DNA from: Candidatus Poribacteria bacterium
GTDB taxonomy: Bacteria > Poribacteria > WGA-4E > WGA-3G
Direction of reading: 5' to 3'
NCBI GenBank assembly: GCA_022827885.1
Contig: JAJEIP010000069.1
Coordinates: 1-64,000 of the forward strand
Length of the DNA stretch: 64,000 bases
Shown piece after piece: positions 22,409 to 28,257 of this stretch. The notes below the pieces were generated by a model. The model had not been told where the DNA came from, did no database searches, and saw only the letters and a list, made by a program, of their open reading frames with translations. Both the position numbers and the translations under genes were made by a program. Numbering within the stretch: the stretch's first letter is position 1; every line of letters starts with the position of its first letter.

Positions 22409-23737
22409 TCACAGTGCAGCGTCTATAGAGATTGTTGCAAGAAAAGAATTGACTTTCCCTTCTCCACTGAACGAATTCCCGGTGGCTCCCAACTTAAAGC
22501 GTGTGCCTTCGTCAAAACGATGCGTGATTCGTCCGCCTTTACCCGGTATAATTCCTGATGCTGCGGTAAGGACGACTTTAGGCATACCATCTGTTAAGAG
22601 TTCGTTATCGTTTGTGAACAGAATGAAAGCACCCGCACCCTCGGCACCCCCAATCCAGAGATCGATCGTGAGCGTCCCACCCTCTTTAAACGCTGTCGTA
22701 TCAATTTCAACAACGCTATAATCTTGATAACCGGCTGTCGGTGTTCGGAAAACACCCAAAACCTGTTGTGAAGGCTCCGTCTCACTGAGGACAACTTTCT
22801 TTGTTTGTGTGGGGAGAAACCTGGGTATGTATTCCGATGGATCCGCATTCGGCGCAAATCCATCACCTGTACTCGGTGTCGTAGATTTACCAACCTGTGT
22901 CCGCACATCCGGTTTTGATGCAATATCCAGAGCAATAGGCGTGTCAATGAGTTCCACCGTCATCTCCGACGGGGCAGCAAAATTGTAAGGTTGTTGGAAA
23001 CGTGTTAAATACTGACTGCTTGCGCCAAACGCCATTAAAACAAGGACAAGGGTTGAGGCAGCAATTGCCCACGGCACGAACGGTTTACCACTGGACGGTG
23101 GCGTAGGTTGGATACGGGAAATCTCTTGCATGATTTTCTCGGTGAGATTCGCCCTAATTTGGAAACCTTCCAGTGCCTCTCGGATCATGGGCTCCGCCTT
23201 CTTCAAGCGGTTCCGAGCACGATGAAGACGACTCTTTACGGTACTCGCTGACACCCCTAAAAATCGGCTAATCTCTTCGCACGTCATTTCTCCGAAGTAA
23301 TGGAGTGTGACGACAGTGCGTTCGCTCTCCTGGAGTCGGGCAAGCAATCTTTGGACGATACCGCGCTGTGCTTCTGTAGCGGCTTTCGCCTGCTCTTCGG
23401 CAACATATTGAGAATACGTCACACCTTCTATGAGTTCGAGGTCTGTGTCTTCTAACGATTGCGTCTGCATCCGTTTTTTTCTAAGCCACGCGTGGCATTG
23501 ACGTGCTGCGATTCTATAAAGCCATCCCGCAAAACGATTCGGATCCTTGAGCGTCGATAGGTTTTTATAGACCCTCAGAAAGGTATCCTGTGTAATCTCT
23601 TCAGCAGTGTGAAAATCGCCTACCTTCCGCCACGCGAGTGCATGAATCTGCTTCTGATATTTTTTTACCAATTGCGCAAAGGCGTTTTCATCGCCTGTGA
23701 GACTGCGTTGAATGAGTTGGACATCGTCGTTCTTCAT
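22409..23737 (-). CDS. ECF sigma factor fused to a membrane segment and extracytoplasmic domain
   Basis: Residues 15-90 form sigma region 2 (AFAQLVKKYQKQIHALAWR, EEITQDTFLRVYKNL, FAGWLYRIAARQCHAWLRK) and 125-182 region 4 (ESERTVVTLHYFGEMTCEEI, SASTVKSRLHRARNRLKK). Unlike ordinary ECF factors of about 190 residues, it runs to 442: a membrane segment at about 221-240, a linker, and a 120-residue domain (323-442) that is also the C-terminal domain of both neighbouring selenoprotein N paralogues. The sigma may be tethered and its activity set from outside the membrane. RBS GGAGG precedes the ATG. It converges with the barrel gene, 28 bases apart, and follows SelN copy 1 by 108 bases. Confidence 0.9.
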   Translation of the reverse strand: MKNDDVQLIQRSLTGDENAFAQLVKKYQKQIHALAWRKVGDFHTAEEITQDTFLRVYKNLSTLKDPNRFAGWLYRIAARQCHAWLRKKRMQTQSLEDTDLELIEGVTYSQYVAEEQAKAATEAQRGIVQRLLARLQESERTVVTLHYFGEMTCEEISRFLGVSASTVKSRLHRARNRLKKAEPMIREALEGFQIRANLTEKIMQEISRIQPTPPSSGKPFVPWAIAASTLVLVLMAFGASSQYLTRFQQPYNFAAPSEMTVELIDTPIALDIASKPDVRTQVGKSTTPSTGDGFAPNADPSEYIPRFLPTQTKKVVLSETEPSQQVLGVFRTPTAGYQDYSVVEIDTTAFKEGGTLTIDLWIGGAEGAGAFILFTNDNELLTDGMPKVVLTAASGIIPGKGGRITHRFDEGTRFKLGATGNSFSGEGKVNSFLATISIDAAL

Positions 23738-23845: not shown

Positions 23846-25843
23846 TCACTCGACTTCATAAATGAACCAGCTACCTTCCACTTTTCGCATCTTAACAGAT
23901 ACCTCCGGGGGGGCTCCCGCAGGGACTCTCAACCGAAAATGGAATTCATCACCGACATATTCGCTGCTCAAAATCTGGATCTGGCTCAACATTTGACTGA
24001 TCTGAGTCCGCACATCCTCCGGCATGCCCTCAAAATCACCTTCAAATGTTTCTCTGGCATCCCCTGTAAGCATCGGATCTATTATCTCTGCGTCAAGCTT
24101 CTTAAATGCTTCCACGAAAGCGTTCATTACATCTTCCGCAGGTTGACCCAAGTGTGCTGATGACACTTCCTTCGCTTCCAATGCCTGATTCGGTTCGACA
24201 GAGATTTTTGCCCAAAAAGCGTTGGTACTCCCTTTTTGGCTGAACCAACTGCCAGTAGCCCCCAACTTAAAAACTTTGCCCTCGTCGAAACGGTATTTGA
24301 TTGTTCCTCTTTTACCGGGCGGAACATCCCACACAGAAGTAAGGGCTTCGTGAGGCATACCCTGTCTTGGGAGTTCGGTGTCGCCATCGTAAAGATCGAA
24401 CGATCCCATGGGTTCAGCATTCCCTACCAGAATATCAATCGTAAGCATACCGCCGCTTTTAAACGCTGTCGTATCAATTTCAATGACAGTATAGTCTTGC
24501 AATCCGTTTCCTGGTGCTCGAAAAATGTTGAGGACCTCCCGCTTCGGTATTTCACGGGTGAGTTTAACTTTTGAATCCTTTGACATAGCATCTAATTCAG
24601 GAGAAGACTCTGAATCAGATTCTAATGAAGGTTTCGCTGTCTCCTCCCGAAATCCGGGAAGTTTTCCATCTAAGGCTTCCGTAAGAAATAAAAGGTACCC
24701 GTTAGCACCGTTGTAAGGTGATATACGTTCATTAACGGGGAGTCTACCCATGAGTTCAAATTCTGTTGATAGCACCAAAGAATCTGCGGGTGAGTATTTC
24801 TTCCAGCCTTTCATGATTGCCTGTGCCAAGGCGTGGGTTGTATCGAAGGTCTTGGATTCACGCTCGCGTCTTTTCGCAATAGGTTCCTGTAAACTGCGGA
24901 CACGTCCTAATTCGGAATTGGGGACCCAAGTATTGATGAAATTTTCATTCAAGAACTCAATAATTTGATCGTCGGAGAGGACACCTGCCCTCAAGGATTT
25001 GCCGCTCCCTCAGCACGCCTCATCGGCAAGTGGTCCATCTATTGAGATGACGTGAATCGGTTTTTGCTGTGCAGGTCCCATTTCCAATGCTTCCTCCAAT
25101 GAAACCCATTTGATTTGCTGCGATTTGTAGAAACGCAATATCAGCTGACGTTCAGCCGCTTCCTGTGTAATCGATGCTACAAACTCGATATCTGGAGCAA
25201 TCTCTCCAATCTCAGCACGGAGTTCTATTTGCGGACAAAAACCGACATCTATGGTTCTGGTACTGTTGCGCCCAACATCAAAATTCAGGACACCTTCAGG
25301 AACGTACATCTTGAAAGAGGCAACCTTTCCCTTAATTCGATCAATGACAAGATGCCCAGTGAATTGGGACGGTGTAAATCGACCATCTTCTAAGATGAAT
25401 TCTGCATGGATACGGAACACAATCTCAGCATATTTATCATTATAGGCGCGCAGGCATGCCCACAACCCGTAGGAGTCCCCCGCATTCATAATAATATCCA
25501 GGTTTGGCGTAGGGTTGAGTTGTCGCAGTAATTCCAGCACACCCTCTTCTTCAATCTTCCAGAGATCGCCAACAGAAACCGCTGTAGGCGGGAGGAACGC
25601 ATGGAAAACCGATGTCGGATACCGCTTCTCCGGCTCAGCGACTCGCAGATTTGCCAGTTCATCCCACGCTACATGAAAGCCATATTGCGTATATTCAATC
25701 GGTGCGATGAAACCTGTTACTAACACTTCCGATGTATCATTAAGATTAAGTGTAATTTTGGTGTCAGTTGTCTGATGGTTGTCGGCATTCAGGTGTCCGC
25801 TCATCGCAATCAGAATAAGAAGTCTAATCGTTAGGGTTTTCAT
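23846..25843 (-). CDS. Selenoprotein N homologue, copy 1 (UGA read as selenocysteine)
   Basis: Two abutting open frames, 25843-25010 and 25009-23846, are in the same frame and separated by one TGA (25012-25010). Read through as Sec278 it gives a 665-residue secreted protein. ATG 25843 follows AAGGAG and a signal peptide (TIRLLILIAMSGHLNA). Residues about 145-225 match the selenoprotein N core (TPSQFTGHLVIDR, MYVPEGVLNFDV), then DGPLADEAC-U-GSGKSLRA, which parallels the vertebrate SCUG redox motif, and LLFLTEALDGKLPGF, which parallels the vertebrate C-terminus. Beyond it are the 120-residue domain shared with the sigma factor (433-551) and an NTF2-like tail (about 567-665). The alternative of two split genes is unlikely because copy 2 has the same TGA. 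Confidence 0.85.
24977..24992 (-). promoter_or_regulatory. Candidate bacterial SECIS element, SelN copy 1
   Basis: On the minus strand, 17 bases after the TGA, GAGGGC and GTCCTC form a 6-bp stem (one G-U pair) capped by the tetraloop AGGT. Loop position 24 bases past the UGA and a G-G-U in the apical loop fit bacterial SECIS hairpins read by SelB. Confidence 0.7.
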
Positions 25844-25933
25844 TTTTAATCTCCTTGTCATAAGTAACAATAACATTCTACACCAACAATGCTTACACAA
25901 CAAGTTGTGTTCGCGTAGATTTTCATTTTGATA

Positions 25934-25973
25934 TATAGTGACGCGAGGAACCGACAAAACGGTTGCCTAATTC
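25934..25973 (-). promoter_or_regulatory. ECF-type promoter candidate A (upstream of SelN copy 1)
   Basis: Minus strand: GGCAACC (25967-25961), 17-base spacer, CGTC (25943-25940) followed by ACTATATAT. The predicted start lies about 90 bases before the SelN copy 1 ATG. Nearly identical sequences are at 29478-29517 and 30668-30706, each upstream of a minus-strand secreted-protein gene. Confidence 0.65.
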
Positions 25974-26446
25974 TGTTCCTTAAGGACGTTCATATTAAAT
26001 TGTTCTACGATGTTTCTACATATCGTTCTTATATTAGACACATCATCGTTATACAATCCCGTCACAGGTTCCTGATAAAGATACTTCGTTTCTTGGTAGA
26101 CCTGTCTACGGAGTTCTGGCATGTCCTCTGGAATCAGGCTGACGACCCTATTATTATGGTATGCTGTTAGAATACTGCAGACTACTGCAATATCACCAGT
26201 TTTTTCCTGCCTGTCTTTAGTTTTAGTCTCAATGGCAATTACGAACAACTTGTAGGTGCTCCATGTCGGATCCACCACCTCAATGTCTCTGATCTCCTTG
26301 AGTTCCTCTATGAGGAGAGTCTTTACCTTCTCACCCACCTCGTTTTCATCGCTAAACACATGAACACCAACATCATACCGGACATTCTGAGCATTTCCAA
26401 TAATTACTATAGCCATGCTCAAGGCTATTATTGAGAACCATTTCAT
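25967..26446 (-). CDS. Small secreted protein of unknown function
   Basis: A 159-residue protein with a signal peptide (MKWFSIIALSMAIVIIGNAQ) and a mature alpha/beta-looking domain (YDVGVHVFSDENEVGEKVKT, IRDIEVVDPTWSTYKLFVIA). RBS AAGGAAAA precedes the ATG. I do not recognise the family. It sits between the two selenoprotein N genes on the same strand; its stop codon forms part of promoter candidate A (CAGAATTAGGCAACC), so the promoter for the next gene begins exactly at its end. Confidence 0.7.
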   Translation of the reverse strand: MKWFSIIALSMAIVIIGNAQNVRYDVGVHVFSDENEVGEKVKTLLIEELKEIRDIEVVDPTWSTYKLFVIAIETKTKDRQEKTGDIAVVCSILTAYHNNRVVSLIPEDMPELRRQVYQETKYLYQEPVTGLYNDDVSNIRTICRNIVEQFNMNVLKEQN

Positions 26447-26592
26447 GGTTTATTTTCCTTCTATATCTGTAGTCTATAATTAATTACCAAGTCAAAATCA
26501 TGTCTGCACGAAGAATGTCTACATGTTTTCAAACTTTAAATGTTAACATGAACAGACTTGGACTGATTGTTCAAAAGATCGCCGCACTAATT

Positions 26593-28257
26593 TTAGTCTC
26601 TTTTTTCCGACGCAGGTTCCACAGAAATTATAGCGAAAAAAGCATTGGTGCTTCCTTTCTGACTAAACCAATCACCAGTAGACCCCAACCGAAAGGATTG
26701 ACCTCGCTCAAAAATATACGTGATTTTCTTTGTTCCTCCGGGTGGAATACCCCACGCTGAAGCAAGGGCATTCTCAGGTACCCCTTCTGTTGGCAATTTA
26801 CTATCGCCAGCAAATAGATCAAACGAACCAGCGGCTTCAGCATGCCCAACAGAAATATCAATCGTGAGCGTTCCACCGTTTTCAAACACCGTAGCGTCAA
26901 TTTCAACGACAGTATAGTCTTGGAATCCGTGTCCGGGTGCCCGAAAAATGTTCAGGATCTCCTGTGAGGTCCGAACATCGTTGAGTACAACTTTCAAGTT
27001 ACTCAAGACAGTATCCGAATTGAACGGTTCCGGTTCTGAAGTATCTTCACCGAATCCGGGGAGTTTTCCGTCTAAAGCTTCCTTGAGGAACGTTAGGTAA
27101 CGTTGCCCCATGTTTGCTCCGATAAGATCATTGACCGGTTGTCTACCCATCAATTCGAGATCTGTTGAGAGAATCAAGGAATCTGACGGTGAGTGTTTCT
27201 TCCATCCTTCCATGATTGCCTCTGCTAAAGGGTGCGTTTTGTCGAACGGTTTAAATCCTCGCTCGCGGCGCACTGCCATGTATACTTTCTTATTAGCGGT
27301 GCGCTCCAATTCAAAATTCGACACCCAAGTGTTGATGAAATTTTCGTTCAAGAACGCAATGACTCGGTTATTAGAGAGGACAACTGCCCTCAGTGCTTTG
27401 CCGCTCCCTCAGCACGATTCATCCATCAACGGTCCGTCTATAGAGATAGCGTGGATAGGCTTCTGCTGTGTCTCTACCATCTCCAATACCTGCTCTGGCG
27501 GCACCCAATTAATCTGTTGTGATTTGTAGAAACGCTGTATCAGGGCATGTTCCGCAGTTTCTTGGAGAATAGAGGCTGTGAATTCAACGTTTTTCAGAAG
27601 ATCTTGGGTCCCAGCACGAAGCTCCATTTGGCAAAAACCGCCTGCGACAATGCTGTGGCTTGCGTCTTTGTGCCGTTTCCAGTTAACATCAAAGTTGATT
27701 GGACCATCAGGGACATACATCTCAAAGAAAGCAACCTTCTCCTCGATCCGATCAATCACAAGATGTCCAGCAAACTGGGATGGGGTAAACCAGCCGTCTT
27801 CTAACTTGAATTCTGCATGAATCCGAAACACGATGTCGACGAATTTATCGTTGTAAGCGCGCAGACATGCCCACAAACCATAGGAATCGCCCGAGTTAAT
27901 ATGCATATCCAGGCTTGGATTGGGATGTAATTGCCGAAGCAAGGTAAGTGCCCCTTCCGCCTCAACCTTCCAAGATTCACCAATTGAAACCGGTTCATCG
28001 GGAAGAAAAGCGTGGAAAACCGAGGCAGGATACCGTTTCTCAGGTTCAGCAACGCGCAAATTCATCAAGGTGCCCCACTCCTTAAAAGAGGATTCGGACA
28101 AATTCTCCTCAATAGGCGCGATGAAGCCTGTCACTAATATTTCTGTTGTCTCATCAAGGTTAAGCGTGATTTTGGTATGAGTTGCCAATTGATCATCGGC
28201 ATGCAGTTGTCCGCTCATTATTACCAGTATCAGGAAACCAAGGGTTAGAATTTTCAT
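26593..28257 (-). CDS. Selenoprotein N homologue, copy 2 (UGA read as selenocysteine)
   Basis: Frames 28257-27409 and 27408-26593 are continuous across a TGA at 27411-27409; reading it as Sec283 gives 554 residues. ATG 28257 follows AAGGAG, 21 bases after the TolB-like stop, so the two genes are probably cotranscribed. A signal peptide (LTLGFLILVIMSGQLHA) precedes the selenoprotein N core (TPSQFAGHLVIDR, MYVPDGPINFDV), the redox motif DESC-U-GSGKALRA, EFLNENFINTW-type helix, FLKEALDGKLPGF, and the 120-residue domain shared with copy 1 and with the sigma factor (431-549). It lacks the NTF2-like tail of copy 1. Conservation of Cys-U-Gly-Ser-Gly-Lys in both copies argues strongly for recoding. 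Confidence 0.85.
27376..27391 (-). promoter_or_regulatory. Candidate bacterial SECIS element, SelN copy 2
   Basis: Minus strand, 17 bases after the TGA: GAGGGC and GTCCTC pair identically to copy 1, with loop AGTT in place of AGGT. Stem, spacing and loop G are kept although the flanking codons differ. Confidence 0.68.

Follow-up and report, generated by a model that had tools for sequence, protein, structure and literature searches.

This locus raises the question of whether two neighbouring reading frames, each interrupted by a single in-frame TGA codon, are intact selenoprotein genes and, if so, how they relate to selenoprotein N (SELENON), an animal protein whose gene is mutated in human muscle disease. 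The stretch of DNA analysed, here called the window, comprises positions 1-64,000 of contig JAJEIP010000069.1 from a Candidatus Poribacteria bacterium (GCA_022827885.1; genome of 5.13 Mb in 148 contigs). The original prediction held that both UGA codons specify selenocysteine (Sec) in exported and duplicated SelN orthologues, whose similarity to SELENON extends beyond the redox motif. As tests, it named a search of the genome for selA, selB, selC and selD and an inspection of homologues to see whether the TGA column contains only TGA or Cys.

Both genes lie on the minus strand and represent paralogues that are split, as proposed, by one TGA at the same site. When read through, gene 1 (26593..28257) encodes 554 amino acids and terminates with TAA, with its Sec codon at 27409..27411 (residue 283, context DESC-U-GSGK). 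Gene 2 (23846..25843) encodes 665 amino acids, including an extra C-terminal tail, and terminates with TGA, with its Sec codon at 25010..25012 (context DEAC-U-GSGK). Each of them starts with ATG (28257 and 25843), preceded by AAGGAG. The segments on either side of the TGA are in phase, and reading through it gives two proteins with 62% identity across this codon, in agreement with the uninterrupted homology originally described. A small ORF of 159 aa without any convincing family (25967..26446, minus strand) separates the two genes. Searches of the read-through proteins against Pfam and NCBIfam gave nothing significant, searches of PDB sequences with the bacterial SelN proteins returned chance matches only and no relative, and an Rfam scan of the window yielded no match.

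The window's own genome contains the complete Sec machinery, comprising selA (601 bits), selB (350 bits, above the cut-off), tRNA-Sec (selC; 75 bits), located directly downstream of selB, and selD (360 bits), which itself contains one TGA; all four genes named in the first test are thus present. In a metagenomic study of sponge symbionts (PMC5649159), most symbiont bins were noted to contain SelA together with SelB, both of which most of the closely related references lack. Since nearly all Poribacteria carry the Sec machinery, the co-occurrence of SelN with selA and tRNA-Sec across the phylum is uninformative. TGA also serves as the stop codon of several further long ORFs in the window, among them an ECF sigma factor gene and the second of the two SelN genes, indicating that the genetic code is standard.

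To follow the TGA column through the family, 190 distinct read-through ORFs bearing the motif were extracted from the Poribacteria loci fetched, including the window's own copies. In all 190, TGA occupies the motif column and occurs nowhere else in the aligned region, and most copies have SCUG or ACUG as the redox motif. This result was not favoured by the search, because one search pattern lay away from the motif, the other was back-translated with Cys, and all stops were read through. Two loci (L081 and L105) contain the TGA within a slightly different motif, CUANGK. A further copy (L087, 4336-5982) has Ser at the Sec column, followed by Glu, and is the one member of the close family observed without TGA there.

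The bacterial SelN family is large. At least one SelN-like match was obtained in 65 of 85 Poribacteria genomes, with 1-18 matches per genome and exactly one TGA inside every match listed, and the genes form tandem arrays of up to seven in 9.6 kb. In the array at L058, which has seven SelN-like ORFs in tandem within this distance, several of the ORFs overlap slightly. All 73 distinct SelN-like loci recovered from named genomes belong to Candidatus Poribacteria; a tblastn search of plasmids gave no match, and two small extra phyla yielded nothing useful. The window's genome contains seven SelN-like loci, comprising the two in the window and one each on contigs C121, C80, C123 (cut by the contig end), C148 and C64. 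The C80 copy (G000:C80:11334-12853; L010, L011) is frameshifted between its halves and represents either a pseudogene or an assembly error. In a phylogenetic tree, a C148/C64-type clade stands apart from the expanded clade that includes both window genes, and these two fall into different subclades, which identifies them as old paralogues. The notion of a duplicated pair thus holds in that the genes are paralogous, but the duplication is not recent, the two genes being long-established members of a family with seven loci.

A second line of evidence lies in the nucleotide sequence downstream of the TGA. At codons +6 to +11, the choice among synonymous codons, which is mostly unconstrained before the TGA and again farther downstream, breaks down: Arg is always encoded by AGG or AGA and Ala nearly always by GCA, while codon +9, specifying Gly, Val or Arg, invariably ends in T. 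These codons form a hairpin with the stem GAGGGC/GUCCUC and the loop AGGU or AGUU, located 20-35 nt after the T of the TGA (27376..27391 in gene 1, GAGGGC-AGUU-GUCCUC; 24977..24992 in gene 2, GAGGGC-AGGU-GUCCUC; both on the minus strand). Stem pairing is preserved in variants, in which AGG goes together with GTC and AGA with GCT, even though the GCT change turns Val into Ala. Moreover, the excess of folding over synonymous randomisation is greatest in the segment covering the hairpin (mean z of -1.84, compared with -0.44 to +0.52 for other segments). The underlying counts come from related sequences and thus do not represent independent events. Since synonymous change is suppressed and the stem changes are paired, as predicted for a SECIS element, the hairpin inside the coding sequence is, on comparative evidence and without protein data, a bacterial SECIS.

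More distant relatives show an exchange of Sec and Cys. Redox-domain matches were detected in 19 genomes of a second bacterial phylum, for which 291 genomes were searched. At the Sec column, some of these genes have TGA (DEFC-U-TNARTLRA, GRC-U-GGAF), whereas others have the Cys codons TGC or TGT (DEEMP-C-ANARTLRA). A hairpin was predicted at the equivalent place in at least five of the nine second-phylum TGA genes examined but in none of the Cys genes examined. The second test thus also had a favourable outcome, since the motif-bearing close relatives have TGA throughout, apart from the single Ser copy mentioned above, and the distant homologues have either TGA or Cys. The GRC-U-GGAF group (L148, L152, L154, L156, L167) consists of second-phylum relatives. 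In L148 and L154, for which both domains were matched, the redox domain comes first and the SelN-type beta domain second, which is the reverse of the usual order.

For the comparison with the animal protein, a human SELENON sequence not taken from a database was used; its residue positions were cross-checked against the published ones (Sec462, Arg466 and codon 315, encoding Gly; PMC12839072; and U428 in the isoform without a 34-residue exon; PMC7474598), and all of them agree. When SELENON was compared by BLASTP with six bacterial proteins that are complete or nearly so, E values ranged from 6e-46 to 2e-31, with alignments of about 300-360 residues; the best shuffled control reached 0.12. Among 24 diverse bacterial proteins, 83 columns show at least 95% conservation; SELENON has the identical residue at 47 of these, which are distributed over both domains, and the common blocks include FRIHAEF, PAQFTG and N-x-D. 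The proposal that similarity reaches beyond the motif is thus well founded, with about 340 residues and both main domains involved. Like SELENON (SEPN1), the bacterial proteins combine an N-terminal beta domain with a thioredoxin-like domain containing S-C-U-G-S-G, with Sec at the equivalent position in the SCUG redox motif named for SELENON (PMC12839072), and they also have its short C-terminal FLxxxL helix. However, they lack its EF-hand, since the strict pattern was found in none of the 190 bacterial ORFs and Pfam reported no EF-hand. In addition, SELENON has an ER type II anchor, where the window proteins have a signal-like N-terminus that could be either a signal peptide or an anchor, and a SECIS in the 3' UTR rather than in frame, whereas the bacterial family features many copies, sigma-factor fusions and, in most copies, an extra C-terminal beta-sandwich. 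Given the missing EF-hand and the added beta-sandwich, the original designation as orthologues goes too far, and we refer to the proteins as SelN-like homologues, a term that their homology in both domains does support. The SELENON branch is too long to root the tree or to place SELENON among the bacterial proteins, leaving the direction of any gene transfer unresolved. SELENON orthologues have been described for vertebrates and some invertebrates (PMC12839072, a 2026 review), and a 2012 survey listed few selenoprotein families common to prokaryotes and eukaryotes, with SelN not among them. We found no report of SelN in bacteria in the open-access literature searched; subscription papers and preprints were outside this search, so that an earlier report remains possible.

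Other readings of the two TGA codons need to be weighed against these data. Each UGA could be a real stop that leaves split gene pairs or pseudogenes, given that this genome uses TGA as a normal stop codon, even for the second SelN gene, and that the related copy on C80 is frameshifted. However, the downstream frames are open and conserved in 190 ORFs, TAA and TAG never occur at the TGA column, and both the covarying SECIS hairpin and the complete Sec machinery would otherwise be purposeless, which makes this possibility highly improbable. Even less can be said for a genome-wide reassignment of UGA to another amino acid, such as Trp. It would account for the read-through of an in-frame TGA but not for the termination of other long window ORFs by this codon, its absence from the interior of the window's other genes, its single occurrence per aligned region, always beside Cys, or the presence of Cys rather than Trp in distant homologues. 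Both the pseudogene and the code-change readings were rejected, based on the single TGA at one column in 190 of 190 copies and the TGA codons that end other window ORFs. Convergence, with Sec present and nothing but a thioredoxin-like redox motif common to SELENON, has similarly little to recommend it: thioredoxin folds with a Sec motif have arisen more than once, and no Pfam family links the bacterial proteins to SELENON, but the similarity also covers the N-terminal beta domain with its conserved blocks and shared columns. We consider it very likely that both genes are true selenoprotein genes whose family is homologous to the catalytic region of animal SELENON. The claim that both UGAs encode Sec is borne out by the Sec machinery, the invariant TGA, the SECIS hairpin and the Sec/Cys exchange, albeit in the absence of protein-level or selenium evidence. 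SelB and tRNA-Sec would then decode the UGA, directed by the hairpin that starts 20 nt downstream within the coding sequence.

The AF2 model of the gene 1 protein (pLDDT 82.7) comprises an N-terminal beta-rich SelN domain (27568..28176, residues about 28-230), which contains FRIHAEF and FTPSQF and is also supported by the homology to SELENON, a thioredoxin-like redox domain (27070..27564, residues about 232-396), with Cys282-Sec283 immediately before a helix, and a C-terminal beta-sandwich (26608..27000, residues about 420-550), all encoded on the minus strand. Foldseek matched the redox domain to a thioredoxin DsbH-type protein (7tkv) and the C-terminal part to beta-sandwich domains of the PPC, collagen-binding and related kinds. 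Since the domains match separately, TM-scores are low when normalised to the whole protein. Apart from the fold of the redox domain, seen with 7tkv and in one weak Pfam match (E 0.024), Thioredox_DsbH/DUF255 proteins differ from the SelN-like proteins in showing no significant family-level sequence match and no SelN beta domain, and we know of no Sec motif in them. Both window proteins have hydrophobic, signal-like N-termini that could serve as either signal peptides or membrane anchors, and the Cys-Sec pair, located where the thioredoxin-like helix begins, thus most likely works outside the cytoplasm. Export as originally predicted is plausible for these two proteins but is not indicated for some paralogues, such as the one on C121, which lacks such a sequence. 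The C148 protein (L013) has a lipoprotein-like signal (LILQGCADK), while the C121 protein (L009) has no signal; judging by their N-termini, these family members seem to reside in different compartments.

It is somewhat more likely than not that the SelN-like proteins are Sec-dependent thiol-disulfide oxidoreductases of the cell envelope, an activity that is inferred and may involve thiol/disulfide exchange through a selenenylsulfide of the vicinal Cys and Sec. The family could instead be non-enzymatic and provide Sec-dependent adhesion or metal binding at the cell surface. The resemblance of the C-terminal beta-sandwich to collagen- and carbohydrate-binding domains, the copper-binding protein CorA as a top Foldseek match for part of the model, and the tandem arrays typical of surface repertoires speak for this alternative. 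However, in selenoproteins that have been characterised, a Cys-Sec pair heading a thioredoxin-like helix serves as a redox site, and Cys at the Sec position in distant relatives fits thiol chemistry. A surface function is thus unlikely but deserves to be kept in mind, and we favour the oxidoreductase reading.

A link to transcription is suggested by the ECF sigma factor gene adjoining the SelN pair (22409..23737, minus strand), whose product has one TM segment, at residues 220-238, and shares 49% identity with the SelN proteins in its C-terminal domain. We infer that the beta-sandwich common to both probably serves to bind either a partner or a ligand in the envelope. Sigma ORFs were found in 42 of the 115 SelN loci scanned, but adjacency alone is only weakly suggestive, because ECF sigma genes are so abundant in Poribacteria, with 40-125 candidates, at a first look, in most genomes of the window organism's genus. 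Stronger evidence comes from fusions: in four of 85 Poribacteria genomes, including the window's own, a Sec-containing SelN domain is fused behind sigma and TM modules. The fusion ORF on C64 (L014:1486-3555, minus strand) spans about 690 aa, with further cases at L103, L104 and L109; the copies from the other three genomes are 86-88% identical to it. The fusions and the 22409-23737 product resemble membrane-anchored ECF sigma factors with C-terminal extensions in having sigma regions 2 and 4, a single TM segment and a part presumed to be extracytoplasmic, but differ from them in that the extension is a Sec-containing SelN domain in four genomes. To our knowledge, no selenoprotein sigma factor has been described. 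Because some SelN domains are fused directly to sigma factors, part of the family probably reports the envelope redox state to transcription, although this function is inferred. That Sec-containing SelN domains are extracytoplasmic redox sensors wired to ECF sigma factors, and hence selenoprotein transcription factors from a family that Poribacteria have in common with animals such as their sponge hosts, is an inference that we regard as tentative, somewhat short of an even chance. The structure prediction for a sigma-SelN fusion was poor (pLDDT 54.5) and was left out of these conclusions. Poribacteria genomes each contain dozens of ECF sigma factors that combine a sigma and TM module with long, varied C-terminal extensions, in ORFs of about 350-1050 aa.

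The expansion to up to 18 matches per genome and the sigma fusions turn both the origin of SELENON and the direct use of selenium in transcriptional signalling into testable questions. Moreover, the bacterial branch offers soluble targets for the structural and enzymological analysis of a human disease protein, together with many natural variants of its active site; SELENON was without a solved structure as of PMC7474598. Codon 315 is altered in patients (c.943G>A; PMC12839072), and the Gly at this position is conserved in the bacterial proteins, corresponding to G164 of the first window protein.
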